Source of the DNA: Pararhodobacter sp.
Lineage (GTDB): Bacteria; Pseudomonadota; Alphaproteobacteria; Rhodobacterales; Rhodobacteraceae
Length of the DNA: 64,000 nucleotides
Assembly: GCA_020832545.1 (NCBI GenBank)
Contig: JAFIEK010000002.1
Location: forward strand, 124,001-188,000
Reading direction: 5' to 3'
Positions 1-12,509 of this stretch are shown here, one piece after another. The notes beneath the pieces were generated by a model. It made no database searches and was not told where the DNA came from. It worked only from the letters and a program-made list of their open reading frames with translations. Each line of letters opens with the position of its first letter. Within the stretch, counting starts at the first letter, position 1. Both the position numbers and the translations under genes were made by a program.

Positions 1-699
1 GTCGTTGGCACCACAGGCAATGTCGTCCCCTTTCTGCTCATCAGTTTTGCTGGCCAAAGTGTCGATAGCGGGTTGGCTGCGCTGATCATGGGTATCGCGC
101 CTGTCGTTACCCTGACATTGGCACCGCTCGTTCACGCGGGCGAAACCCTGAGCAGGTTGACGATCCTTGGCGCTGCGATCGGATTTTGCGGGATCAGTGT
201 TCTGGTCGGCCCCGAGGCGTTTTACGGGCTTGGGGGCGATCTTGTCCCGCAACTTCTCCTGGTGGGCGCGGCTCTGTGCTATGCGTTCACGGCCCTTTTT
301 TCACGCCGGTTTCCCTTTGCCAACGCCCTTCAGATGGCCGCAGCATCAGTTCTTGTCGGCGCTTTGGCGACCAGTGTGATCGCTGTGCTGCAAATGGGCG
401 GCAGCCCGGTCCCGGCCCCATCAACGCGCTCCCTGATCGCACTGGTCTATCTTGGCATCGGCCCTACTGCGCTGGCCGCATTGATCTATTTCCAACTTAT
501 TCCGCGAATAGGCGCAGGGCGTGTGCAACAGGTCAACTATATCGTGCCGGTTCTGGGTATCTTGCTTGGGGCGCTGGTACTGAACGAACAGCCGGAGTGG
601 AATGCTCTTGTGGCGATCCCGATGATTGTGCTGGCCGTCTATCTGGTGACACGGCGTTCAGGCGAAGCGCCGAAACCGTGCGTCATTGGCACCAGATAG
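1..699 (+). CDS. DMT-superfamily (EamA) transporter, 5' truncated
   Basis: The reading frame is open from the first base, so the N-terminal part of this gene lies outside the window; 232 residues are visible. The protein is strongly hydrophobic, with about seven membrane segments separated by short loops, and has the internal layout of one EamA repeat plus part of the other. This is typical of ten-helix inner-membrane metabolite or drug exporters of the EamA/RhaT group. The C-terminus ends in a short basic tail (residues RRSGEAPK). It converges on the AraC-type gene that ends at 872. Substrate cannot be told from sequence. The TTG at 73 is internal and not the true start. Confidence 0.85.
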   Translation, partial: VVGTTGNVVPFLLISFAGQSVDSGLAALIMGIAPVVTLTLAPLVHAGETLSRLTILGAAIGFCGISVLVGPEAFYGLGGDLVPQLLLVGAALCYAFTALFSRRFPFANALQMAAASVLVGALATSVIAVLQMGGSPVPAPSTRSLIALVYLGIGPTALAALIYFQLIPRIGAGRVQQVNYIVPVLGILLGALVLNEQPEWNALVAIPMIVLAVYLVTRRSGEAPKPCVIGTR

Positions 700-871
700 T
701 GCGGGCGAAGAGTTCAAGAGATCGCCTCTTCGTTCCCTTGCACATGTCGCACCGCCTGTCTGACTTTGGCTGCTGTTCATCGTCAGCCGCAAGATAGATT
801 GGATGACGCGGCCACCTTCCATGCATACCTTCTGGTGCCCCGATATTTTCAATCGCCTCCGCGACCGGCAT

Positions 872-1639
872 TCAGGTATGGCATTCCCTTCCGGACTGGA
901 ACCGCAAAGGGGAGCACCCTATAAGCGTGCGAAAAGCATGAGTGAAGGCACTCGGGGTTTCATATCCCACGTCGAATGCAGTTTTCGTCACAGACTGTCC
1001 GGCGGAAAGCTTTTCAATGGCGATCATGATCCGCGTAAGGCGCCTGAGTTCGCGAAAAGTCATTCCGGTCTCTGCTCGAATTGTACGTATCAGATTGCGC
1101 TCTGAGAACCCCATGCGCTTTGCCCATGTCCTGAGGGTGCTCTGATCTGCCGGTTCATTCTGCAAATGCTGAGCCAATTCTGCAATATGCGGGTTGCTGG
1201 GAATTGGAAGGTGCAATGGCTCCGACAGTCCCTGCCTGATCTCATGGACCAGCACATCGGCCAACATCAGGCTTAAGTCACTATCATCCCCGCCTGCCAG
1301 GCGAACAAGAACCTCCCGCATAAGCGGCGAAACGGAAATCACCGCTGCATCAGCATACACCGGCGGATAAGCCTCGCTGAGATATGCTGTGCGCATCTCG
1401 ACGGGGCCCACGCACTGGATGGCGTGCGGCGTTTGTGCGGTAATCCACAATGCGCGCCCTGGAGGGATGAACCACATCTTGTTGTGAACCGATACGCGCA
1501 TCGTTCCAGAAATGGCATGTGCAATTTGGTGCGCAGAGTGCGAATGGGATGGGATAAGTGTCCCAGCGTCGAAGGCTGACGCGAAGCCAGTGACCTTGAG
1601 CTTCATGTCGTTTGGCATTTTGGGCGTAATAAAATTCAT
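872..1639 (-). CDS. AraC-family transcriptional regulator (cupin N-terminus)
   Basis: About 255 residues. An N-terminal cupin-like sensor carries HSHSAHQ (a possible metal or ligand site) followed by the PPGRALWI stretch typical of this regulator group. The C-terminal 100 residues form a double helix-turn-helix AraC domain (SERNLIRTIRAETGMTF; DVGYETPSAFTHAFR). It is divergent from the MFS transporter starting at 1707 with only 67 bp between them, so it probably controls that exporter and itself. The open frame extends to 1717, but that start would overlap the MFS start. I chose the ATG at 1639; the ATG at 1618 is also possible. Ligand unknown. Confidence 0.85.
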   Translation of the reverse strand: MNFITPKMPNDMKLKVTGFASAFDAGTLIPSHSHSAHQIAHAISGTMRVSVHNKMWFIPPGRALWITAQTPHAIQCVGPVEMRTAYLSEAYPPVYADAAVISVSPLMREVLVRLAGGDDSDLSLMLADVLVHEIRQGLSEPLHLPIPSNPHIAELAQHLQNEPADQSTLRTWAKRMGFSERNLIRTIRAETGMTFRELRRLTRIMIAIEKLSAGQSVTKTAFDVGYETPSAFTHAFRTLIGCSPLRFQSGRECHT

Positions 1640-1706
1640 TCTGGCGACAGACAGTACGGCACCTGTGTGGAATATCAAGGTCAGTCTACATCCCGGAGAT
1701 ATGCAG

Positions 1707-2906
1707 ATGTCACGCAACGAAGCCCTTCAATTCATCAATGTGGCGCATTTCTTTGACCACTTCTTTCTGCTGATTTTTCCGACAGCAGCGCTTGCGATAG
1801 CGCCTGCATGGGGCATGAGCTTTGCCGATGTGCTTTTGCTCGGAACAGCGCTTTACGCAATGTTTGCTCTTGGCACCTTGCCCGCTGGCTGGCTTGGCGA
1901 CCGCGTTGACAGGATGACGCTGATAGCAGTGTTCTACATCGGTTGTGGAGTTTCCAGCATTCTTGTTTCTTTGGCCACTGGGCCAACTACTATGATGATC
2001 GGGCTGGGATTGCTCGGATTGTTTGCCGCGATTTACCATCCAGTTGGGCTTGCTCATGTAACACAGATCGGGCTGCGATCAGGGCGGGCGCTGGCGATCA
2101 ATGGCGTGTTTGGCAATATGGGGCTGGCAGGCGCGGCTGTCACAACCGGCGTTCTCGCGCACTACTTTGGCTGGCAAAGCGCGTTCGCGCTGCCCGGTCT
2201 TGTATCAATTGCCATCGGCGGCGCGCTGGCATTTCGAAATAGGACAAACAGAGATATTGTAGCAGCAGGCCCTGTCGGCCACACGAATACTCCGTCAGAA
2301 CACAGTCGGCGCACACAGTGGACGGTTTTCATGGTGATCTGCATCGCTGCTCTTTTTGGAGGGCTGGTGTTCAATATAATGACTGTATCGCTGCCCAAGT
2401 TCCTTGACGAAAGGCTTGTGAGCGAAGGTTCCGGGCTGGCATGGATCGGCGCCTCTGCGGGCCTTGTCTTCGCCGTTGCCGCCTTTGCTCAGTTGCCGGT
2501 TGGAGAGCTATTAGATCGGATTGGCGCACGCCCGGTGCTTCTTTGCCTGCTGGCCACCGAAACCGTGTTGTTGCTAGCGCTTGCACAGGCGACGGGCTGG
2601 ATGGCTTTCGTTCTGGCCCTGCTCGTGGTCACTCTGATGTTCGGGGGTATTCCGATTACAACGTGGTTGATTGGACGTTATCTCGATGCAGCAATTCGTT
2701 CGCGCGCTATTTCGGTAGAATATGTTCTGGCTCTTGGCGTTGGCTCGGCATCGGTGCCCTTGATTGCGCTTCTGCACAAGGCGGGACTTGGATTTGGCTT
2801 TCAGTTTACGTTCCTCGCTATGGCGACGGCAGTCGTGTTCACTGTTGGCTGGCTTTTGCCAAAATCTGATCGTCATCGGTTCGCACCGGTGACATCCGGA
2901 TCCTGA
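1707..2906 (+). CDS. MFS transporter
   Basis: 399 residues, about 12 membrane helices with a central cytoplasmic loop (around residues 185-205), the usual size for a major facilitator permease. The motif GWLGDRVDR between helices 2 and 3 matches the MFS motif A consensus (G-x-L-a-D-r-x-G-r-k). ATGs occur at 1701 and 1707; GGAG at 1695-1698 is correctly spaced only for 1707. The gene is divergent from an AraC-type regulator, an arrangement common for inducible efflux or uptake genes. The N-terminal pattern (SRNEALQFINVAHFFDH) resembles MFS proteins of the fosmidomycin-resistance-like group, but substrate and direction of transport are not certain. Confidence 0.88.
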   Translation: MSRNEALQFINVAHFFDHFFLLIFPTAALAIAPAWGMSFADVLLLGTALYAMFALGTLPAGWLGDRVDRMTLIAVFYIGCGVSSILVSLATGPTTMMIGLGLLGLFAAIYHPVGLAHVTQIGLRSGRALAINGVFGNMGLAGAAVTTGVLAHYFGWQSAFALPGLVSIAIGGALAFRNRTNRDIVAAGPVGHTNTPSEHSRRTQWTVFMVICIAALFGGLVFNIMTVSLPKFLDERLVSEGSGLAWIGASAGLVFAVAAFAQLPVGELLDRIGARPVLLCLLATETVLLLALAQATGWMAFVLALLVVTLMFGGIPITTWLIGRYLDAAIRSRAISVEYVLALGVGSASVPLIALLHKAGLGFGFQFTFLAMATAVVFTVGWLLPKSDRHRFAPVTSGS

Positions 2907-2934
2907 ATTAACCTGGAAACTGAGAGGGCCACAG

Positions 2935-3735
2935 ATGAGGATCATGTGCCTGAATGGCTGGGGCGGAACGCTGAACGACGAGCTCATCGCCTATCTGGGC
3001 AAGGAAACACCGGACGTCCTCTGCCTGCAGGAGGTTATCTACAGTCCGGCGACCGACCAGGACTGGCTGACCTATCGCGATGGCGACCACGTCCTGCCGC
3101 AGCGGGCAAACTTCTTTCGAGACGTTGCCAATGCGCTGCCGGGCCACGCAGCCACCTTCTGTCCAGCGGCGCAGGGCCCGCTTTGGGATGGCGATCGCGA
3201 GGTGCCGTCGTTCTGGGGGCTTGCGACGTTCGTACGGTCGACCCTGCCTGTGATTGGCCAGGTACAAGGCTTCGTTTACAAGGATTTCACCCCTGACGGT
3301 TTCGGCGCTCATCCACGGGCCCGCAACGCCCACGGCCTGCGCGTACATGATCCTGCCTCTGACCGGTCGATAAGCATTACCCATATGCATGGCCTGCGCC
3401 ACCCGGAGGGGAAATCGGACACGCCCGAACGCGCGCTGCAGGCCCGTCAACTTCTTGACTATGCGAACCAGGTATCGCGGCCGGGTGATATCCGCGTCAT
3501 TTGCGGGGATTTCAATGTTGCAAAAGACAGCGAGACGCTGTCGTTCCTTGCACAACACGGCTTCACCGAACTGGTCACCGAAGGTCGTTTCAAGGGTACT
3601 CGCACCTCGCACTACAAGAAGCCGGAACGCTTCGCCGACTACATGCTGATTGACCCGCGGGATGCAGTACACCGTTTCCAGGTTGTCTACGAGCCCGAGG
3701 TCTCTGATCACTGTGCACTGCTGCTGGACCTGTGA
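2935..3735 (+). CDS. endonuclease/exonuclease/phosphatase family protein
   Basis: 266 residues covering the whole EEP (DNase I-like) fold. Visible motifs: MRIMCLNGWG near the N-terminus (the metal-site Asn), LCLQEV (catalytic Glu), a central HMHG, VICGDFNVAKDS (the Asp-x-Asn pair) and the terminal SDHCALLL (the Ser-Asp-His motif). No signal peptide is evident, so it is probably cytoplasmic. Substrates of the family include DNA, phosphoinositides and sphingomyelin and cannot be narrowed here. It follows the MFS gene by 28 bp with an AG-rich ribosome site (GAGAGGG, 2921-2927) and may be co-transcribed with it. Confidence 0.88.
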   Translation: MRIMCLNGWGGTLNDELIAYLGKETPDVLCLQEVIYSPATDQDWLTYRDGDHVLPQRANFFRDVANALPGHAATFCPAAQGPLWDGDREVPSFWGLATFVRSTLPVIGQVQGFVYKDFTPDGFGAHPRARNAHGLRVHDPASDRSISITHMHGLRHPEGKSDTPERALQARQLLDYANQVSRPGDIRVICGDFNVAKDSETLSFLAQHGFTELVTEGRFKGTRTSHYKKPERFADYMLIDPRDAVHRFQVVYEPEVSDHCALLLDL

Positions 3736-3800
3736 ACGGTGTGAAACAGAAGGGGTACGAACGCGCCGAGTAGGTGCGCGCGCCGAGGCTTTAGGTACGA

Positions 3801-4277
3801 CTACCTGACGAAGTATCGCGTGACCGGACGCCCAACAATGCCGCCTGCAACCAACGCCCACCAAACGAAGAGCGGCTGAAAGGCCAGTCTGACCCAGAAA
3901 TACCACGGTGACTGCGGCAACCCCGCCACGTTCAAACCACCAATAGCATTGGCGATATTGGCTGGAAACACTGCGACGAAATATGCGGCCAAGGCCAAAC
4001 CGGCGATCCGCCTTGTGGCAGGGAACAACAAGCCGATCGCGCCTGCAATCTCGCATAATCCGGTTAAGGCAACGATGAACTGCGGTGCGGGCAGGAAGCC
4101 TTCGATCATGGCCAGGTAGCGTTCGGGCGTGACCAAATGGTCTAAGCCGACTACCAGCAAACCGATGGCAAGCCCATGTCGCATATGATCCGGCCATGCT
4201 GCCGCCTGCAGCAGGCCCATTCGCGCTATGAATACACTGAGAAGCGTTGCGCTGATAAGGAGTCCGAAAAAGAGCAT
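3801..4277 (-). CDS. DoxX-like small membrane protein
   Basis: 158 residues with four predicted membrane helices, including the GLCEIAGAIGLLFPATRRIAGLAL stretch characteristic in position and composition of the DoxX family (a Glu and Gly-rich second helix followed by an Arg-Arg turn). DoxX proteins are small integral membrane proteins linked to quinone or thiosulfate redox reactions and to oxidative stress. The start at 4277 has AAGG about five bases upstream. It is divergent from a TetR regulator that starts at 4346, and a two-site operator sits between them, so it is very likely a target of that repressor. Confidence 0.85.
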   Translation of the reverse strand: MLFFGLLISATLLSVFIARMGLLQAAAWPDHMRHGLAIGLLVVGLDHLVTPERYLAMIEGFLPAPQFIVALTGLCEIAGAIGLLFPATRRIAGLALAAYFVAVFPANIANAIGGLNVAGLPQSPWYFWVRLAFQPLFVWWALVAGGIVGRPVTRYFVR

Positions 4278-4297
4278 GGCAACCTTTGGAAGACAAT

Positions 4298-4345
4298 GTT
4301 AGCAGTGTTAACGTCGCAGTAGAGATTTATGTAAGCGGTGTCAAC
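4298..4345 (+). promoter_or_regulatory. tandem TetR operator, copy 1 (tetR/doxX intergenic)
   Basis: Two 15-bp imperfect palindromes in the same orientation fit GTWAGCRGTGTYAAC: site 1 at 4298-4312 and site 2 at 4331-4345. Their starts are 33 bp apart, about three helical turns. Site 2 ends directly at the ATG of the TetR gene. The same two elements with the same spacing recur inverted at 10942-10996. The position between doxX and tetR fits autorepression plus control of doxX. Seen in sequence; binding by the adjacent TetR is inferred. Confidence 0.75.
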
Positions 4346-4951
4346 ATGACGCGGGAAAATTACCATCACGGCAATCTGAAGGAGGCGATCATCAGCGCCG
4401 CCCTCACGATTTTGCATGCGCAATCCGTCGAATCTGTCGGCCTGCGAGAGATTGCGCGGATGATCGGGGTTTCCTCTGCGGCGCCCTATCGGCATTTTGC
4501 GAGCCGGGAGGCGCTGCTGTCGGCCCTGGCAGTTCGCGGCTTTCGCGCGTTAGAGCACCGTCTTCAGCAAGTTGTCAGAACGCATGGGCCGGAATCCTTG
4601 GCCGAACTGGGGCAGGCCTATGTCGCCTTCGCGCTCGAAAACCGGAATTTGTTTGGGCTGATGCTTAGAACAGAGCGTACGGAGCAAACCGATGATGACC
4701 TGCATGAGGCGGGTCAGGCGGCATTCAATCTCTTGCAGTCAGCCGTCAGTGCCATAGCGGGCAAGCCTTGCCGCGACGACGCGATCGGCGCCTGGTCACT
4801 GGTTCATGGGCTTTCCATATTGGTGGCGGAGCGCCAGATCGCGCCTGATCTTCTTGAGCGCGCGCGCCTCAAGGCTCTGGTGGCACAGGTGACAGACACC
4901 TACGCGCGAGGGCTTCAAGCAGGGTGCGGGCCGACGAAGGATGAGGATTGA
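4346..4951 (+). CDS. TetR/AcrR-family transcriptional repressor
   Basis: 201 residues. The N-terminal 50 residues form a TetR helix-turn-helix (SVGLREIARMIGVSSAAPYRHF), beginning with MTRENYHHGNL, a start typical of TetR proteins with a WHG-type C-terminal domain. The rest is helical ligand-binding sequence with FALENRNLFGLML. The open frame extends to 4286, but the ATG at 4346 fits family length and places operator site 2 immediately upstream. Divergent from the DoxX gene. A second copy of its operator lies before the FAD monooxygenase near 10.8 kb, suggesting a regulon of redox or detoxification genes. Inducer unknown. Confidence 0.9.
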   Translation: MTRENYHHGNLKEAIISAALTILHAQSVESVGLREIARMIGVSSAAPYRHFASREALLSALAVRGFRALEHRLQQVVRTHGPESLAELGQAYVAFALENRNLFGLMLRTERTEQTDDDLHEAGQAAFNLLQSAVSAIAGKPCRDDAIGAWSLVHGLSILVAERQIAPDLLERARLKALVAQVTDTYARGLQAGCGPTKDED

Positions 4952-5069
4952 GCACACGGGATTCGCGCTCAACCCCGGCTGCACCAACCCTGACCTTTGG
5001 CTGTTCGTCGCGGCGATGCATTGGACTGCTCGAACTGGATCTTCGTTTCGTGATGCGGAACCATAGGCT

Positions 5070-5657
5070 TTAAAAGGTCTCTGACGTTGCGAAAAAGTCT
5101 GCAACAAGCTTTCTGGCATGACGCCAAAGAGCAGGTGAACCTTGATGGATCTGAGGGCCATAGCGCTCCACCACCTGCTGCTCGGTGAGGCTGTGTTCGG
5201 TCCATGTGCCTCCACCTGTCGCCAGATTCTGGACAAGCGGCTGAAGCCGATCAAGAGCCTTGGCGAAACGGGCGTCCGGAGTTTGCGCCGCTTCAAATTC
5301 TTTCCACAGTGAATGAAGTTGATGCCGCTGAGCGAGTGGCAAAATTCCAAAAATCCGATCGGCGGCCAATTGCTCAGCTTTCATTTGCTCGTCGGTTGAT
5401 TGACCGCTGTGGAGCGGTACGTCTCCCGCATCAATTTCCACAATGTCATGCAGGAGGAGCATTTGTATCACACGTCCGATGTCCACAGCAGCGGGGGCAT
5501 GCTCAGCCAGCGTGATGGCATACATCGATACATGCCAGGAATGCTCGGCTGAGTTCTCGAGGCGAGTTTGACTAATGATGGGCGACGCGCGCTGGACACC
5601 TTTGAGCGCATCGAGAGTTCGCAGAAATTCAAGTTGCTGGTTCAGCGCCGTGGTCAT
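5070..5657 (-). CDS. HD-domain hydrolase, YfbR-like 5'-nucleotidase
   Basis: 195 residues. HD-domain metal ligands are visible: H39 in NSAEHSWH, then H70-D71 in LLLHDIVEIDAGD, followed by later acidic residues. The pattern SAEHSWHVSMYAITLAEH and the Glu/Asp-rich DIVEIDAGD are characteristic of the YfbR/HDDC2 group, which dephosphorylates (deoxy)nucleoside 5'-monophosphates. The open frame reaches 5696; the ATG at 5657 gives a normal length and has GGGATC upstream. Cytoplasmic. It converges with the TetR gene ending at 4951 and appears to stand alone. HD family and YfbR-type metal site are clear; exact substrate is inferred. Confidence 0.85.
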   Translation of the reverse strand: MTTALNQQLEFLRTLDALKGVQRASPIISQTRLENSAEHSWHVSMYAITLAEHAPAAVDIGRVIQMLLLHDIVEIDAGDVPLHSGQSTDEQMKAEQLAADRIFGILPLAQRHQLHSLWKEFEAAQTPDARFAKALDRLQPLVQNLATGGGTWTEHSLTEQQVVERYGPQIHQGSPALWRHARKLVADFFATSETF

Positions 5658-5759
5658 CAAGTCCGATCCCTTCAAACTCGCGCTATGGTCGATCACTGAG
5701 TCAATGATCGCAATGGGCTCTACGCTTTCTTAATGCATTGCATCACCGCGGGACGATTA

Positions 5760-5786
5760 CCCTCACCAGACGATGTCCGGTGAGGG
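5760..5786. repeat. intergenic hairpin downstream of hydrolase
   Basis: Perfect 8-bp inverted repeat, CCCTCACC at 5760-5767 and GGTGAGGG at 5779-5786, loop of 11. It lies between the 3' end of the alpha/beta hydrolase gene (5916, minus) and the HD gene start. There is no U-tract on either strand, so it is at best a weak or protein-assisted terminator. The rest of 5658-5915 shows no gene. Confidence 0.4.
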
Positions 5787-5915
5787 CTGCAAATCTGAAT
5801 TGGCGATCATCTTATCGTGCTGTGATGCCTTCTGCTGAAGGACTTGATGCAGCGTAGCTTCGCTTCGATGCGGCGTCGGGCAGCGAGATACAATACCGCG
5901 TCAACCCAGATGTCA

Positions 5916-6764
5916 TCATTCGACCAGCTGTCGTGAATGCCCAGCTACAAGATCTGCGATCGTCGCAAGCCTGGAGTTGGGAAGCTCATGCCCCATTCCC
6001 GAAACCACATGGATCTCTGCCCCGTCAATTCCTGCGGCAATGGCCTGCCCGTTTTCGACAGGAAGAAGTGGATCATCCTCACCGTGGATGACGAGAACAG
6101 GGTGGACAATCTCGCGAAAGCGCCCTGTCCAGTCTTCACGGGCTGTCATGCTTGCGTGATTGAACATGCTTGCGGGGCTGCCCGTCCGTGCAAGAACCTG
6201 TTCGATACGCGTGCGCACCTGCTCCCCGTCGAGGTTCTGGCCTGATCCCGAGCTCATCTCCGCTATACGTTCAAGAAATCTGATCACTTCGCCCCGATCC
6301 GACCAGTCCAATGATTCCAGGGTGCCGAAGTGCTCAAAGAATTCCTCAGGGATGTGCGGCAGTGAAGGGCCATCCCAGCCCAGGGGTTCTGAAGCCAGAA
6401 GGATCAACGACCTGACCCTTTCCGGGTGCTCCAAGGCGATCATCTGGGCAATGTATCCGCCAAGTGACATACCCATCAGCGCAACCTGTTCCAAACGATA
6501 GGCATTCAGAATGCCAACAACATCTGCAGCCAGATCCTCGGCAAAATAGTTCGCCTGCCCCGGAGGCAGCGTGGTGGATTGCCCGGTGTCGCGGTGGTCG
6601 AAGCGAACCACGAAGAAACCGCGACCTGCGAGATTTTCGCAAAACCTCTCTGGCCAGCCCAACATGGAAGTAGCGGCCCCCATTATAAGTAGAATTGCCG
6701 GATCATTCGCAGAACCAAACGACTCTGTGGCGAGTTGAACGCCATTGGTTTCAACCATTCTCAT
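5916..6764 (-). CDS. alpha/beta hydrolase
   Basis: 282 residues of a cytoplasmic alpha/beta-hydrolase fold. Nucleophile elbow GMSLGGYIAQ, acid in HGEDDPLLPV and His in GMGHELPNSR form the expected catalytic triad; HRDTGQS near the N-terminus is typical of the family. The frame is open to 6854, but the ATG at 6764 begins MRMVETNGVQLATESFG, a standard start for this group, with AGGAG upstream. It is downstream of, and in the same orientation as, a TetR gene (ending at 6903), and the 138-bp gap between them carries a strong TetR-type palindrome. Substrate (ester, lactone or epoxide) unknown. Confidence 0.88.
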   Translation of the reverse strand: MRMVETNGVQLATESFGSANDPAILLIMGAATSMLGWPERFCENLAGRGFFVVRFDHRDTGQSTTLPPGQANYFAEDLAADVVGILNAYRLEQVALMGMSLGGYIAQMIALEHPERVRSLILLASEPLGWDGPSLPHIPEEFFEHFGTLESLDWSDRGEVIRFLERIAEMSSGSGQNLDGEQVRTRIEQVLARTGSPASMFNHASMTAREDWTGRFREIVHPVLVIHGEDDPLLPVENGQAIAAGIDGAEIHVVSGMGHELPNSRLATIADLVAGHSRQLVE

Positions 6765-6866
6765 TTCGCTTTCCACTCCTTCCTGTGCGACCGCAAGAAG
6801 CGGGGCCCGCGTTGGGGCAGCGCCCATTCTCAGGACTGCTCGACGTTGGAACATCGCGGCCCCTTT

Positions 6867-6888
6867 TATAACCTACGTGTTGGTTATA
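6867..6888. promoter_or_regulatory. TetR-type operator palindrome
   Basis: Perfect inverted repeat TATAACC (6867-6873) and GGTTATA (6882-6888) separated by 8 bp. It lies in the A/T-rich stretch between the TetR gene (6903-7463) and the hydrolase gene starting at 6764, about 100 bp upstream of the hydrolase start. The size and position fit the operator of the neighbouring TetR protein. Confidence 0.6.
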
Positions 6889-6902
6889 TATTGCTGAAGA
6901 CG

Positions 6903-7463
6903 TCAAATCAAGCCTGACTTCAGATGATTCAATGCCCAGCGGAGCCGTTCGAGTACATGGTCGGAGAGCCCTGTATCACTATCGGACGCGACCCATTGCA
7001 TGGTTGCCCCTGCGATAATCGCATGCAGATGCTCTGCGGTCCGGTCCCGTTCAGCTCCGGGCGGCAAACGGGCGGCAATAGCGCTTTGCACCAACGTGTA
7101 GCGCCTGTGAGCAAGCGCTCGAAGGGCGGGATCGCGCGCTTCCAAAGCGGCAAGCGTAACGCGCGCCGAAAACCCGTCGCCGCGCCCCATACTTCCAACA
7201 ATCTCTTCGAGAAACGGCCAAAGTTCATTCCCGGAGCTGTCGAGCGGCAGGCTTTCAAGCCATGCCTGCGTGGCTTCGGCTTCATGTGTCGCGATCCTGA
7301 GCAAGATCGCCTCTCTGTTTCCGAACCTCTGGATCAGCGTTGCGCGCGACAGTCCAACGCGTTTGGCAAGGTCGGACAACGTGAAGCTGTCTCCGCTTTC
7401 GGCCAGCACTTCCAGTGCAGCAGCTAGTACATTTTCGTCGGATATGGTCTTGGGGCGTGTCAC
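6903..7463 (-). CDS. TetR-family transcriptional regulator
   Basis: 186 residues. The N-terminal helix-turn-helix is clear (SFTLSDLAKRVGLSRATLIQRFGNREAILLRI, residues about 25-57) followed by an all-helical ligand domain. It begins MTRPKTISDENVLAAALEVLAESG, the normal TetR start. It lies directly upstream of the alpha/beta hydrolase on the same strand and is separated from it by an operator-like palindrome (6867-6888), which suggests it represses the hydrolase. Unrelated in operator sequence to the TetR at 4346. Inducer unknown. Confidence 0.88.
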   Translation of the reverse strand: MTRPKTISDENVLAAALEVLAESGDSFTLSDLAKRVGLSRATLIQRFGNREAILLRIATHEAEATQAWLESLPLDSSGNELWPFLEEIVGSMGRGDGFSARVTLAALEARDPALRALAHRRYTLVQSAIAARLPPGAERDRTAEHLHAIIAGATMQWVASDSDTGLSDHVLERLRWALNHLKSGLI

Positions 7464-7547
7464 GGTTGCTTCACCTTCGCGATCTGCACTGCGTCAGTCA
7501 TAGATCATGTAGCTTGCGGGTTGAACCGGCTGCGCGCCGATCGGAGG

Positions 7548-8132
7548 TCAGGCTGGCCGCTGCTGGCACTTTTTCGTGCGGGCGTCCCATTCGGCCTTGA
7601 GCAGAGCATAGATGAATTCGTCACCCCATGCGCCATTGAAGCGGTCATTCTGCAGCAGATGTGCTTCCCGGCGAAAATGCAGTCTTTCAACGACACCGAC
7701 CGAACCGGCATTCAACGGGTCAAGACGCGCGAATATCCGGTGAAACCCGATGCGGGAGAAGCCGACATCCACCATCATCCCGACAGCTTCGGTTGCGTAT
7801 CCCGCGCCCGCAAAATCGGGGTTGAAGATGTATCCGACCTCCCCCTGCAGACCGGCCTTGTTTTCAACCTTAAGCAGAACTTCGCCAAGCAAAGCAGAAT
7901 CGTCTCGCCGGACAACTGCGAGGCGCAACGTATCTCCGTTTTCCTCGATACGCGTGGACAGCGCGGCCGCGAACTGTTTATCCAGCGCCGCGCCGACTGG
8001 CACCGGCATGTACAGAAACCTGTAGACCTCGGGACGGCTGTGATAAGCGTCATAAGCCGGACGATCCGCAGGCTCAAACGCCCGTAGCAAAAGGCGTTCG
8101 GAATGGATGGGCAGAAAGGTGGCAGTGTTCAT
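7548..8132 (-). CDS. GNAT-family N-acetyltransferase (RimJ/RimL type)
   Basis: 194 residues. SERLLLRAFEPADRPAYDAYHS at the N-terminus and GEVGYIFNPDFAGAGYATEAV (the acetyl-CoA P-loop region, with the aromatic-Ala-Thr-Glu-Ala signature) followed by RIFARLDPLNAGSVGVVERLHF are diagnostic of the RimJ/RimL branch, which acetylates protein N-termini or small amines. The C-terminus WGDEFIYALLKAEW is also typical. Cytoplasmic, single gene, same strand as the following GNAT gene but separated by 90 bp. Substrate not predictable. Confidence 0.88.
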   Translation of the reverse strand: MNTATFLPIHSERLLLRAFEPADRPAYDAYHSRPEVYRFLYMPVPVGAALDKQFAAALSTRIEENGDTLRLAVVRRDDSALLGEVLLKVENKAGLQGEVGYIFNPDFAGAGYATEAVGMMVDVGFSRIGFHRIFARLDPLNAGSVGVVERLHFRREAHLLQNDRFNGAWGDEFIYALLKAEWDARTKKCQQRPA

Positions 8133-8222
8133 TTGACCCCGTGGTTAATGATTGCGACAAGCCGCATCTAAGAATGCGTTTCCTGCCCTGCAACGGCAGC
8201 GCAGGTCATGGCTGCGGGTCCG

Positions 8223-8753
8223 CTAAGCTGTCGCGGCCTCAAGAACCAGGTTGGGAGCTGCCACGCCTTCAAAGTGGAAAGTCGTGTGCGCGATAGTTCG
8301 AAACCGATGCGCCGTGTAAAAAGAGATGGCACTTCGGTTGGCATGATGGACGGTCAGATAGATTTTCTGGTGGCCCGCGTCCGACACCAGTTTCTGCGCG
8401 CTTCGCAAAAGCAGCCCCCCGATCCCCCGGCGCTTGTGACAGGACTGGATATAAAGCGTCGCCAGTTCAGCCGTACCAAACGCCGGATCCAGCAGCGACG
8501 GATTGGTCAGAACCCTGGCATATCCAAGAACGAACGCGCCGCTGGAACAAACCAGAATGTCGGTGCCTTCTGTTTCCAGCATGCGCCGGAATGCAGCGGT
8601 GGAGTATTCCTTGAGCAGATGCCTGGCGAAGGCCGGTGAGATACCGTCCACTGCGTAAGTATCAAGCCAAACCTGCGTCGCAAGAACCGAGAGGACGCCT
8701 GCATCACCGGGTCCGGCGAAACGGATTTCATGACCTGCGCTGGCCCGCTCCAT
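8223..8753 (-). CDS. GNAT-family N-acetyltransferase
   Basis: 176 residues. The acetyl-CoA binding core is visible as LATLYIQSCHKRRGIGGLLLRSA (Q/R-x-x-G-x-G/A motif) followed by IYLTVHHANRSAISFYTAHRF, the standard motif A to B order. The N-terminus (FAGPGDAGVLSVLATQVWLDTYA) fits GNATs acting on small molecules or proteins. It belongs to a different branch from the RimJ-type enzyme at 7548-8132. No operon partner is obvious; same-strand neighbours are 83-90 bp away. Confidence 0.86.
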   Translation of the reverse strand: MERASAGHEIRFAGPGDAGVLSVLATQVWLDTYAVDGISPAFARHLLKEYSTAAFRRMLETEGTDILVCSSGAFVLGYARVLTNPSLLDPAFGTAELATLYIQSCHKRRGIGGLLLRSAQKLVSDAGHQKIYLTVHHANRSAISFYTAHRFRTIAHTTFHFEGVAAPNLVLEAATA

Positions 8754-8836
8754 CGGCTACCTTCCCTTTTGCTGCGGTCACTTATCGATTTTGGCGACTG
8801 CCGCTGTTGCAAATACGCCAGACGGAAAGGGCAACA

Positions 8837-9361
8837 TCAGAAATCATAGGTCAGTAGCACCACGCCAGTCTCATGCAGATGCGACGCGACAAGGCGCAGG
8901 CTCCCCGGCATGCCGCCCGCAAACAACGGCAATCCGGTTCCCAGAACGATCGGGTTCACTTTCAATATCAAGCGATCGATCAGACCCGCTTCTTGCAGCA
9001 GACCCGCAACCCCGGCACCGCCAGCGAGATAGATTGTACCACCGTCTTCGGATTTGATTTTCCTTACGGCGCTGACAGGATCCTCGCGGACAATCTCGAT
9101 CCCGCAGTCATGCGGAAGTTGCAGGCTGCGCGAAATCACGACATGCCGCATATTCTGGTAGGGCCGGTCGCCGGGCTGCATGCCATAGCGATAGCCAAAT
9201 TCATAAGTGCCGCGCCCCATGATCACGCAGTCATAGCCCGTCAGGCGTTGCAGGTAATCCGTCACATGGTCACCTTCGGCAACGAAATCATCGACAGTGC
9301 CGTCAGCTCTCGCGATGAAACCGTCAATGGAAATGGCGACGTCATAGACCAGCCGTCTCAT
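8837..9361 (-). CDS. RibD C-terminal / dihydrofolate reductase-like protein
   Basis: 174 residues. MRRLVYDVAISIDGFIARADG is the characteristic N-terminus of the YwjB/RibD C-terminal family; CVIMGRGTYEFGYRYG and IYLAGGAGVAGLLQEAGLIDRLIL (NADPH-binding Gly-rich loop) follow in order, and the protein ends LLTYDF as usual. The family has a DHFR fold and binds NADPH; the physiological substrate of these stand-alone homologues is mostly unknown. Cytoplasmic. A TMP-resistance or riboflavin role should not be assumed. Confidence 0.86.
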   Translation of the reverse strand: MRRLVYDVAISIDGFIARADGTVDDFVAEGDHVTDYLQRLTGYDCVIMGRGTYEFGYRYGMQPGDRPYQNMRHVVISRSLQLPHDCGIEIVREDPVSAVRKIKSEDGGTIYLAGGAGVAGLLQEAGLIDRLILKVNPIVLGTGLPLFAGGMPGSLRLVASHLHETGVVLLTYDF

Positions 9362-9424
9362 TGTCCGCTCCTTGTTCTCTCTGCGGTGCAGGTCAGGCCG
9401 CAGGCAATTCCCTTGTGTGAATTA

Positions 9425-9610
9425 TCAGGACCGGCGTCGCAGGGCCACGATTAACCCCCAGACAACGAGGCCGGTACCAAGCCCGATTGCGGTCCAGGGC
9501 GCGGGGGCGTTCAGGGCAAGCCCCACGCCTGCTCCGATCAATGTGAAGCCGGGGATCACAAGCAGGAATGCCGCGATCCAGCCGGATCTTCCGGTAATTG
9601 AGTCAGTCAT
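9425..9610 (-). CDS. small two-helix membrane protein
   Basis: 61 residues with two hydrophobic helices (about 11-33 and 36-56) joined by a short loop and ending in the basic tail RRRS (inside-positive). GAAAGGA lies 8-12 bases upstream of the ATG at 9610, a good ribosome site. Located between the RibD-like gene and the FAD monooxygenase on the same strand, 23 bp after the latter ends, so probably co-transcribed with it. No family recognised. Confidence rests on the ribosome site, hydrophobic pattern and snug position. Confidence 0.6.
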   Translation of the reverse strand: MTDSITGRSGWIAAFLLVIPGFTLIGAGVGLALNAPAPWTAIGLGTGLVVWGLIVALRRRS

Positions 9611-9633
9611 GGTTCAGGTCCTTTCGGTGGTAT

Positions 9634-10809
9634 TCAAGCGGCATGTTCCGGCACTTGGTAATCATAGATCCACGATAGCGATCGGTCCGTAACGAACACA
9701 CGGAAAACAATTGGCATAAGCGTGTCGCGCAAGTGCATCTGCAACCGGGTGCGCGGCGCCTTATAGGCCCCGCGGCGGCGGCCTTCGGCCACAATCCTCT
9801 CCGCACGTGGGCGGCGCTCGGTCTCAAACCGTGCGAGCGCCGCTACCGGATCGGTGATGTCGCGAAGGCAAACTGCGAGGAAAGCCGCATCCTCTAACGC
9901 TAGCGATGCCCCCTGACCCGAGCTTGGCGATGTGGCATGTGCCGCATCGCCAATCAACAGCACCCGCCCGTCCTGCCAGCGCGGCACATGCGGCAAGTCG
10001 TGGATTGGATAGGCATGGATTTCAGGCGTGTTGCGGATCAGGTCAGTGATCAGCGGCAGGTCGTCATCAAAGAGCGCCGTCAGCTGCGTGCCCCAATCGC
10101 CTTGCGCGCTCTTCAGCTCATTTTTTGATGGCTCTTTCGCCGCGCCGATGTTGGCAAACCACCAGGCTTCACCATCTTCACGCACTGCATAACCGAAGAA
10201 GGCACGGCTGCCCCACACCATGCGCATTTCCCCTTCTGTTGATCGAAGCCCGGAATGCGGCACCACGCCGCCGAGGTTCAAGAGCCCGGTATAGTCCGGT
10301 TGCAACCTCTGACCGGGCATTGCGGCGCGCACATTTGATCGGATGCCATCAGCACCAATCAACAGATCGGCGCGCAAAACCTGCCCATCCGAGCAACGCA
10401 CGTTTACGCCGCTCGTGCCCTGCTGATAGTCAGTAACGGTATGTCCACGACGGATCGAGATGCCGCGACGCTCAGCCTCGGCTGAAAGCGCCTCGTGCAG
10501 GGAGCGGCGCATCAACGTGATCGGCACGTCACTATCACAGTAGCCGCTTGTCACGTTGCCAAGTCGGTTGCCACGCGCGCCGAAGAACGCGATCTGGGGG
10601 GTGCGGATATGCGGCTGGCCTCGCACGCACGCATCAAGTTCCAGCCCCTCAAGAACGCGATGGCCATTGGACGCAAGCCCAAGAAACAGGCCCTCATCCC
10701 CTTCGGCAGCGTCGCGCGTCTCGATGATCTCAACCGAAATCCCGGTTTTGGCAAGCGCGATAGCGGCGACGGGGCCAGCGATTCCGGCCCCTGCAATGAT
10801 CACTTTCAT
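9634..10809 (-). CDS. FAD-dependent monooxygenase
   Basis: 391 residues of the PHBH-type flavoprotein monooxygenase fold. GAGIAG (residues 7-12) in the N-terminal beta-alpha-beta binds the ADP part of FAD, GADGIRS is the DG motif contacting NAD(P)H and FAD, and LIGDAAHATSPSSGQGASLALED is the GD motif. Such enzymes hydroxylate aromatic or polyketide-like compounds, or inactivate drugs such as tetracyclines and rifamycins; the substrate here is unknown. ATG at 10809 preferred over TTG at 10818 because AGGG is nine bases upstream. A copy of the TetR operator module lies 133-190 bp upstream, linking it to the TetR/DoxX locus at 4.3 kb. Confidence 0.9.
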   Translation of the reverse strand: MKVIIAGAGIAGPVAAIALAKTGISVEIIETRDAAEGDEGLFLGLASNGHRVLEGLELDACVRGQPHIRTPQIAFFGARGNRLGNVTSGYCDSDVPITLMRRSLHEALSAEAERRGISIRRGHTVTDYQQGTSGVNVRCSDGQVLRADLLIGADGIRSNVRAAMPGQRLQPDYTGLLNLGGVVPHSGLRSTEGEMRMVWGSRAFFGYAVREDGEAWWFANIGAAKEPSKNELKSAQGDWGTQLTALFDDDLPLITDLIRNTPEIHAYPIHDLPHVPRWQDGRVLLIGDAAHATSPSSGQGASLALEDAAFLAVCLRDITDPVAALARFETERRPRAERIVAEGRRRGAYKAPRTRLQMHLRDTLMPIVFRVFVTDRSLSWIYDYQVPEHAA

Positions 10810-10858
10810 GCTGGACAACCCTATTTGTCAAAGTATGATTCGTTAGATCAAACTAATA

Positions 10859-10945
10859 TTATGGGGTACTACCTATGTCAACGATGAATGGAGTGGGCGC
10901 GACTGAGCGCTTGTATGCAAGAACCATGTCCCGCCTCGGCATCAT
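10859..10945 (-). CDS. possible 28-residue leader ORF
   Basis: Starting at the ATG that abuts operator copy 2 on the minus strand, a short frame encodes 28 residues (MMPRRDMVLAYKRS..., ending DIGSTP) and stops 49 bp before the FAD monooxygenase start. It sits exactly where the TetR coding sequence begins at the matching locus (4346). It may be a real leader peptide, or just the remains of a start codon carried along when the promoter module was copied. No homology recognised. Confidence 0.25.
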   Translation of the reverse strand: MMPRRDMVLAYKRSVAPTPFIVDIGSTP

Positions 10946-10996
10946 GTTGACACCGCTTACATATATCCTTAGAGCTGCTAGAACACTGCTAACATT
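10942..10996 (-). promoter_or_regulatory. tandem TetR operator, copy 2 (inverted)
   Basis: On the minus strand this repeats the module of 4295-4349: the first element (15 bp) at 10982-10996, then 18 bp of unrelated spacer, then a 22-bp block at 10942-10963 that includes GTAAGCGGTGTCAAC and the following ATGA. Both blocks are identical to copy 1 and the 18-bp spacer length is preserved. It drives toward the FAD monooxygenase (start 10809) and is divergent from the membrane protein at 11094. Confidence 0.75.
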
Positions 10997-11093
10997 AGCC
11001 AAATCTCGAAAGGATTGGCGATAAGCTGGTTGTCACCTGCCGCCGCAGTCTGCTTGCCTCAAGTCGCTCCCTGCAGAGTTCAGGTGTTGAAGA

Positions 11094-11459
11094 ATGCCGC
11101 CTTTTTTCTTGCTCGCAACCATCTCACTTGCACTGGTCGCGGTCCATTGCATCTCCGGAAGCCCTCAGGTTGTGCAGCCTCTGCTCAAATCGAAAGAACT
11201 GCCAGACGACGTGATCTACGTCCTTTACATATGCTGGCATGTGGTCACCCTCCTCATGGTAGCCTTCGCTGTCGCGTATGCCGACGCGGCGTTTGACCAG
11301 TCCTTTCGCCCATATGCCGTCGCGGCGACGGTCTTGGCGGGTGCAATCACCGTATGGAGCTTAGTGGTGGTGATCTGGAAGCGGCAAAGCCATCGAAAAA
11401 TGCCACAATGGGTTGCTTTTCTCGTTCTCACATTTGCCGGAACTTGGGCGCTTTATTGA
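11094..11459 (+). CDS. four-helix membrane protein of unknown function
   Basis: 121 residues with four predicted membrane segments (about 3-22, 43-63, 73-94 and 103-120) and a small cytoplasmic loop rich in Lys/Arg (WKRQSHRKMPQW). No family recognised with certainty; general size and layout are like DoxX-type or DUF small membrane proteins. Gene followed within 10 bp by a strong intrinsic terminator (11469-11500). It is divergent from the FAD monooxygenase across a copy of the TetR operator module, the same position doxX holds relative to tetR at 4.3 kb, so it may be in the same regulon. Confidence 0.7.
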   Translation: MPPFFLLATISLALVAVHCISGSPQVVQPLLKSKELPDDVIYVLYICWHVVTLLMVAFAVAYADAAFDQSFRPYAVAATVLAGAITVWSLVVVIWKRQSHRKMPQWVAFLVLTFAGTWALY

Positions 11460-11468
11460 CTTCAGAAG

Positions 11469-11500
11469 AAAACCGCCCGGATGTCACTCAGGGCGGTTTT
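11469..11500 (+). terminator. intrinsic terminator
   Basis: Perfect 10-bp stem AAAACCGCCC (11469-11478) with GGGCGGTTTT (11491-11500), 12-nt loop, followed by a further T. Lies 10 bp after the membrane-protein stop codon; the A-tract on the other side could let it work in both directions for the convergent beta-lactamase gene. Confidence 0.85.
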
Positions 11501-11609
11501 TGTGCTCCCGGGCACTTTCCCAGTTCATTTCAAGGTGACAGAGCATGATGAAATGCTCCTGGTCGCCGCCTGAAAAACATGTGGGTTCCCAGGCTTTTTT
11601 CCACTCGCC

Positions 11610-12509
11610 TTAGTTTGACCCGATCTCGTTCAAGGCGTCGTTCTCAGCCAAGATCGCGTAAGTGACCTCGATACGTGCCGCCATGGCGCCAGGCAAACTG
11701 AGATCGAGGTTATGTGCGAAGACAACCGGGCCACCGTCATTGCTAGGCCGCTCTACCCACCCGACAAACCAACCCGTTCGCTCTGCATCCGGCGGCAGAA
11801 TGGAATCGTCGTTCGATAGCAGAAATCCATCATTGTCGATTGGCAGGACAGCGCCTGTCTTGCCGTAAATCATGCAATCTCGGCCACATTCCTGCATGCT
11901 CAGCAAGTCGATGGTTCGCATTTGGACGTCGGGATCGACGTCCAGAGCCCTTTCGCGCAGTTGCGACAAGAACGAGATCTGCTCCAGCGCTGATATTTCC
12001 AGCGGACCAGACAGCCAGAAGCTGCGCAGGCGGCTTTCATCGCCAATATCGGCGTTTCCATACTGCAAGCGCTGAACCGCTTCGAGTTCCCGCGCATGGC
12101 CAATGCGTTCGGCGATGTCCTGAAAAACCCAGACAGTCGAGGAGGTGATGGCATCTGAAAGACTTGTGTCCTGGTCCCAGGACCCAACCCCGCGTGGGCG
12201 TCCATCCCATGGTAGTGCGGCGTGGACATCAACACTCTCGCCGGATTCCAGAGCGATAAGTGTATGTGGAATCTTAAAGGTCGATGCCGGGAAGAAACGC
12301 TCAGATGCGCGCTGTTCATTGCAAACGAACATACGACCCGTGTCGATCTCTACCATCACGAAGGTCGAGCGCTCACTGTCCACGAGTTGTTCGCACCCGC
12401 GCGCGTCTTCGATGCTCACAACCTCTGCGCGCAGGCTCGTAGAGAATGACAAGGCAATCGCGAGCAGTGCAAAGCCCGCACGAATTCCTGTTTTCGGATT
12501 GAACGACAT
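11610..12509 (-). CDS. class D (OXA-type) beta-lactamase
   Basis: 299 residues with an N-terminal signal peptide (about 1-28), so periplasmic. All class D landmarks are present in order: catalytic Ser76 in PASTFK with Lys79 (the carbamylated base in the family), S124-T-V126, Y150-G-N152, the Trp of FWLSGPL (W165) and K217-T-G219. The length is slightly above the usual 250-280. It hydrolyses penicillins in the family; the spectrum cannot be read from sequence. It is divergent from an AmpR-like LysR regulator across 344 bp, unusual for class D enzymes and suggesting induction by cell-wall fragments. No mobile elements frame it, so it is probably an intrinsic chromosomal gene. Confidence 0.92.
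   Translation of the reverse strand: MSFNPKTGIRAGFALLAIALSFSTSLRAEVVSIEDARGCEQLVDSERSTFVMVEIDTGRMFVCNEQRASERFFPASTFKIPHTLIALESGESVDVHAALPWDGRPRGVGSWDQDTSLSDAITSSTVWVFQDIAERIGHARELEAVQRLQYGNADIGDESRLRSFWLSGPLEISALEQISFLSQLRERALDVDPDVQMRTIDLLSMQECGRDCMIYGKTGAVLPIDNDGFLLSNDDSILPPDAERTGWFVGWVERPSNDGGPVVFAHNLDLSLPGAMAARIEVTYAILAENDALNEIGSN

Follow-up and report, generated by a model that had tools for sequence, protein, structure and literature searches.

Why should the promoter of a TetR-type regulator gene be present twice, 6.6 kb apart, when the regulator itself follows one copy? We address this question in a 64,000-nucleotide stretch of a Pararhodobacter sp. genome (assembly GCA_020832545.1, contig JAFIEK010000002.1, positions 124,001 to 188,000 of the forward strand), hereafter called the window. 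Judging from the sequence, an autoregulating repressor of the TetR_C_33 branch, encoded by tetR at 4346, probably controls its own gene, the divergent DoxX-like gene and, through a copied promoter, the gene of a small hydrophobic protein that starts at 11094 (hereafter 11094).

The initial annotation had described an inverted duplication of a 55-bp module, and alignment confirmed its coordinates and orientations, as well as two identical blocks around a spacer of equal length (Table 1). In a same-sense alignment the copies agree throughout positions 1-15 and 34-55, giving identical blocks of 15 and 22 bases, and the 18-base spacer between them retains 8 matches (shuffle p 0.076). The 60-base flanks show no excess of matches (17/60 on each side, shuffle p 0.32 and 0.36), and a local blastn of the two module regions gave an E value of 6e-12 over 58 bases. 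The palindromes that each module was said to contain are present at both sites of copy 1 and at the inner site of copy 2. The outer site of copy 2, GTTAGCAGTGTTCTA, fits the pattern GTWAGCRGTGTYAAC only with three mismatches, and copy 2 therefore carries one full palindrome and one damaged palindrome. In both modules the operators are spaced 33 bases apart, start to start, and the inner operator of copy 1 covers the first two bases of the tetR ATG.

Table 1. Features of the two promoter modules and of the adjoining genes (positions in the window; scores and ranks refer to the scan of the window with the family matrix).
Feature	Position	Strand	Basis or score
DoxX-like gene, divergent, 158 aa	3801..4277	-	Pfam scores below curated cut-offs
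Module copy 1, divergent promoter region of tetR and the DoxX-like gene	4295..4349	+	alignment
Outer operator of copy 1, ATGTTAGCAGTGTTAACGT	4296..4314	+	score 19.0, rank 3
Inner operator of copy 1, ATGTAAGCGGTGTCAACAT	4329..4347	+	score 20.2, tied first
tetR, 201 aa, TetR_N and TetR_C_33 domains	4346..4951	+	Pfam domains
FAD-dependent monooxygenase gene (ATG at 10809, TTG at 10818), doubtful regulon member	9634..10818	-	sequence search
Palindrome TTAGTTTGATCTAA, unlike the TetR operator, over the second hexamer of TTGACA-17-TATTAG	10843..10856	-	
TTGACA-17-TATTAG, a promoter-like site ahead of the monooxygenase that overlaps the 28-residue frame	10853..10881	-	10/12 consensus bases
28-residue frame behind copy 2 (ATG at 10945), in our judgement probably not a gene	10859..10945	-	
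Module copy 2, inverted	10942..10996	-	alignment
Inner operator of copy 2	10944..10962	-	score 20.2, tied first; 19 bases identical to copy 1
Outer operator of copy 2, damaged by loss of its right arm	10977..10995	-	score 4.4, rank 28
11094, small hydrophobic protein of 121 aa outside any named family, the likely target of copy 2	11094..11459	+	sequence reading

The TetR protein passes the curated Pfam cut-offs for both of its domains, TetR_N (39.5 bits, cut-off 24) and TetR_C_33 (47.2 bits, cut-off 26.8). Its relatives are distant, with 47% identity in Devosia and, on plasmids, 40% in Klebsiella and 43% in Pseudonocardia. None closer than 47% was found, including among 60 relatives at E 0.001 and in 385 class genomes at E 1e-30, the latter yielding two matches besides the home genome (40% and 44%). 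The solved structure nearest to it in sequence, 3on2, is that of an uncharacterised protein annotated as a "probable transcriptional regulator".

A family operator was derived from the regions between about -160 and +20 of 18 tetR homologues scoring 90 bits or more, excluding the window gene, by an expectation-maximisation search for a 19-bp palindrome with the 64 kb window as background; the 18 homologues are partly dependent, L085 and L086 being close relatives. The resulting palindrome is close to ATGTTGACAnTGTCAACAT. Its matrix ranked three module sites first to third in the window (19.0-20.2), the next best site scoring 10.7, which bears out the earlier proposal that the sites are of the TetR-operator type. 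Copy 1 holds the kind of operator found in the homologues' own promoters, its two sites ranking tied first and third in 64 kb. Among the homologues, the top site scores at least 19 in 16 of 18 (the exceptions are L023 and L025), and two sites of at least 12 occur in 14 of 18. Two homologues outside the matrix set (G402 and G494) have operator pairs 32 and 33 bases apart, and the Pseudonocardia operator differs from the inner operator of the window by one base of 19. As at tetR, an ATG directly follows or overlaps the operator in L027, L031, L056 and L058, where the true starts are not established. Paired operators at the start of tetR are usual in the TetR_C_33 branch, and it is well supported that the module sites are operators of this TetR's own family, at the usual place for autoregulation, to which the repressor would bind.

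The whole genome was searched by pattern, the matrix being applied to the window. There are three exact occurrences of the 15-mer pattern GTWAGCRGTGTYAAC in the genome (4.37 Mb), each within the modules, with one further site at one mismatch and 13 at two; a control with the pattern read backward gave 42 sites at two mismatches or fewer. With a degenerate 19-base operator pattern, the three module sites alone were found at one mismatch or fewer and five more places at two (scores 11.0 to 18.8), the backward control giving zero matches in the genome. We therefore reject the explanation that the palindromes are a common genomic repeat, a point on which the initial annotation had proposed such a search.

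The divergent partner of tetR falls short of the Pfam cut-offs for DoxX (19.9 vs 23.6) and DoxX_2 (20.1 vs 26.3), and is hence called DoxX-like only. At the homologous loci (21 examined, 20 with a TetR match; L022 and L099 are one locus), inspection by eye found a small hydrophobic protein facing tetR in eight (L026, L027, L054, L055, L082, L087, L097 and L098), so that copy 1 represents a recurring kind of arrangement; the membrane nature of the partner proteins was judged by reading the sequences. The initial annotation was right to recognise an ordinary autoregulated TetR promoter in copy 1; the second copy is unusual and probably functional. At copy 1, the two 19-bp operators would cover the start regions of tetR and the DoxX-like gene, forming an autoregulatory divergent promoter at which the repressor would keep both genes low until a ligand releases it.

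The likeness of the two modules is better accounted for by copying than by independent origin, to judge from the complete identity of their inner operators (19/19) and their shared 33-base spacing. Operator pairs within homologous promoters (21 pairs, 17 loci), in contrast, have 11-18 identical bases, at spacings from 21 to 63. The chance that two independent draws from the family matrix are identical is 7e-5, and the true figure is higher because one TetR alone probably tolerates fewer sequences than its whole family does. All ten mismatches between the modules fall in the spacer, leaving 37 bases unchanged; the corresponding probability of 1.5e-6 is post hoc, since the mismatches themselves define the spacer.

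Which gene, then, would copy 2 serve? The hexamer TTGACA lies inside the inner operator (in copy 2 at 10947-10952, + strand); it points to the DoxX-like gene at copy 1 and to 11094 at copy 2. Taken as a -35 element, it gives a promoter match of 10/12 towards the DoxX-like gene (spacer 15) and of 9/12 towards 11094 (spacer 17). These matches are suggestive only, because scores of at least 9 came up in 67, and of 10 in 7, of the 400 one-strand shuffles of copy 1. On the side of 11094 the operator of copy 2 is intact and the candidate promoter is the 9/12 match; on the monooxygenase side the best promoter match is 7/12 or less, and a separate promoter-like site lies closer to the gene. The outer operator of copy 1 has TTAACG as its right arm, where copy 2 has TTCTAG. 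With a possible -35 element inside an intact operator, 11094 is likely to be a better target of copy 2 than the monooxygenase, and copy 2 now appears to work mainly towards it.

We infer the following course of events from the sequence, including promoter positions, direction of copying and retention by selection. Copy 2 would be a copied and later diverged tetR promoter, in which the inner operator, with the TTGACA that faces 11094, stayed unchanged, while the outer operator lost one arm and the spacer drifted. The TetR at 4346 would most likely repress 11094 in trans through this inner operator. It is possible, though we put it forward tentatively, that a small local regulon arose in this way by copying of the repressor's divergent promoter to an unrelated membrane-protein gene, the operator arm that also serves as the regulator-ward promoter being lost and the operator facing the new gene kept exactly, which would have turned a two-way switch into a one-way switch.

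The 11094 protein belongs to no family at E 0.001, a looser limit giving weak matches below cut-off, and at E 1e-9 or better it is present in five of the 376 class genomes, counting the home genome. No protein-level relatives of 11094 were found on plasmids. Plasmid searches at the DNA level also gave no relatives. In one genome (L065; G036, contig C45), a relative of 11094 stands just before a different TetR-like frame, read by eye, and behind a different palindrome, CATACCATATAGTATGGTATG; from this arrangement, the unnamed membrane family may often be TetR-controlled.

Copy 2 could instead control both sides, one TetR regulating the DoxX-like gene, 11094, the monooxygenase and perhaps the minus-strand genes behind it. 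The intact inner operator would allow this, as would the eight genes that run on the minus strand between the monooxygenase and 5070, both ends included, at distances of 23-219 bases, and no terminator-like site was found in 10750-11600. We nevertheless consider such control unlikely. Between copy 2 and the monooxygenase lie the promoter-like TTGACA-17-TATTAG and an unrelated palindrome, so that the gene may be under control of its own, though 26 of 1000 shuffles reach at least 10 and a stricter scan did not list the site. Copy 2 also lacks the TTAACG, with nothing above 7/12 there, though in copy 1 that hexamer pair is itself not significant. The initial annotation had seen a conserved start codon on this side, opening a 28-residue frame. 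The ATG and the frame are present, but they are weak evidence for a start, because the operator ends in CAACAT and one further base suffices to make the ATG. The monooxygenase-facing side of copy 2 is thus probably no longer a promoter, the monooxygenase probably having its own, and its membership in the regulon is doubtful. Of the single regulon proposed earlier, which joined DoxX, the monooxygenase and 11094 under a TetR presumed to bind both copies, the DoxX-like gene and 11094 remain likely members.

That copy 2 is a relic, left over from a duplicated or rearranged tetR promoter and without present function, is improbable. Its damaged outer operator and drifted spacer are what a relic would show, but 37 bases are intact while 10 of the 18 spacer bases differ, and searches of 10701-11100 by tblastn and blastn found no tetR remnant (besides the module, the best match had an E value of 0.003 over 22 bases). 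A second tetR remnant behind copy 2 was accordingly rejected, the matches besides the module being short. Highly improbable, in our estimation, is a reading in which some other factor, widespread and active at the prs promoter of relatives as well, recognises the core GTAAGCGGTGTCAAC, the TetR not being the main reader of this core. This core occupies the gap between a DsbA-type gene and the divergently oriented prs (names that we presume from the protein sequences) in all four other matching genomes among 100 and, by the surrounding sequence, at the prs-type location in 11 of the 12 other matching genomes among 295, two genomes belonging to both sets (L004 1501-1515; L050-L053; L072-L079; L081). 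The home genome has such a site with one mismatch, and in the twelfth genome (L080) the site, scoring 17.0, is located elsewhere. Against this reading, outer arms are missing from the prs-type sites, no score of 12 was reached at the nine loci scanned, the home copy scores 8.8, and no second operator at the module spacing was seen by eye in the stretches inspected; moreover, the homologous tetR promoters already account for the window sites. We tentatively regard the prs-type sites as a separate element that has a core containing TTGACA in common with the modules.

Several observations weigh against control of 11094 by the TetR through a copied promoter. The outer operator of copy 2 is damaged, and the promoter matches towards the DoxX-like gene and 11094 are weak. 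The best match towards tetR in copy 1, TTAACG-16-TGTAAG, has 8/12 consensus bases, a score reached by 261 of 400 shuffles and hence not significant. The family matrix is likely broader than the preference of this TetR, which makes convergence less improbable than 7e-5. Two of the two-mismatch sites in the genome lie inside long reading frames on other contigs, C61 (18.8, almost equal to the outer operator of copy 1) and C85 (15.4), and are background in our judgement. At relatives of 11094, an operator of at least 12 was found in none of seven loci (L065, L066, L067, L069, L094, L095 and L096). Finally, a second site of at least 15 outside the tetR promoter and gene was present in none of the 15 comparator loci (8-16 kb each), defined as homologous loci with a site of at least 15 at their own tetR promoter; L087 has a site of 15.1 inside its tetR gene, and no site of 15 was found in the more distant loci L059-L063. 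The window system thus resembles other autoregulated TetR/AcrR repressors of the TetR_C_33 (PF13305) branch in its domains, its paired operators at the start of tetR and its divergent partner, and differs from them in having a second, partly damaged operator pair at another divergent promoter 6.6 kb away.

In promoter propagation, a regulatory stretch is placed in front of an unrelated gene. A comparable placement is described as horizontal regulatory transfer (PMC5890482). The present case differs in that the copy lies within one genome, close by and inverted. No mobile element was noticed at the edges of copy 2 by reading, no dedicated search having been made. Literature searches that paired TetR with an operator string, with the WHG domain, or with DoxX, operator and palindrome found no paper. 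Should both copies be bound by the TetR, the window would offer a compact case of regulon growth by copying of a whole promoter, not by point mutation, and would link a pair of small membrane proteins, one from a family without a name, to a single ligand-sensing repressor. The derived family operator also makes targets of other TetR_C_33 repressors predictable.

A search for monooxygenase orthologues at E 1e-60 in 100 genomes gave, apart from the home genome, a single relative, which shares 70% identity over residues 112-391; at E 1e-70 the home genome alone was found among 285 family genomes. By eye, this relative (L071; G011, contig C153) is cut at residue 112 beside an apparent insertion sequence, its promoter being missing because of this junction, and behind it there seems to lie a relative of the 61-residue gene (9425-9610). 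The stretch 5070-12509 holds a cluster of enzymes related to drug-modifying families: a hydrolase nearest to macrolide esterases (below cut-off), two GNAT acetyltransferases, a RibD_C protein, the FAD monooxygenase and a relative of class D beta-lactamases, below its cut-off. The palindrome TATAACCTACGTGTTGGTTATA, noticed by eye at 6867-6888, lies in the gap that separates an alpha/beta hydrolase gene (5916-6854, -) from a second TetR gene (6903-7463, -) and is probably the second TetR's own operator. The G+C content is 0.57 in both 1-3800 and 3801-11500, compared with 0.62 in 12601-64000; the lower value at the start of the window is what an acquired stretch might show.

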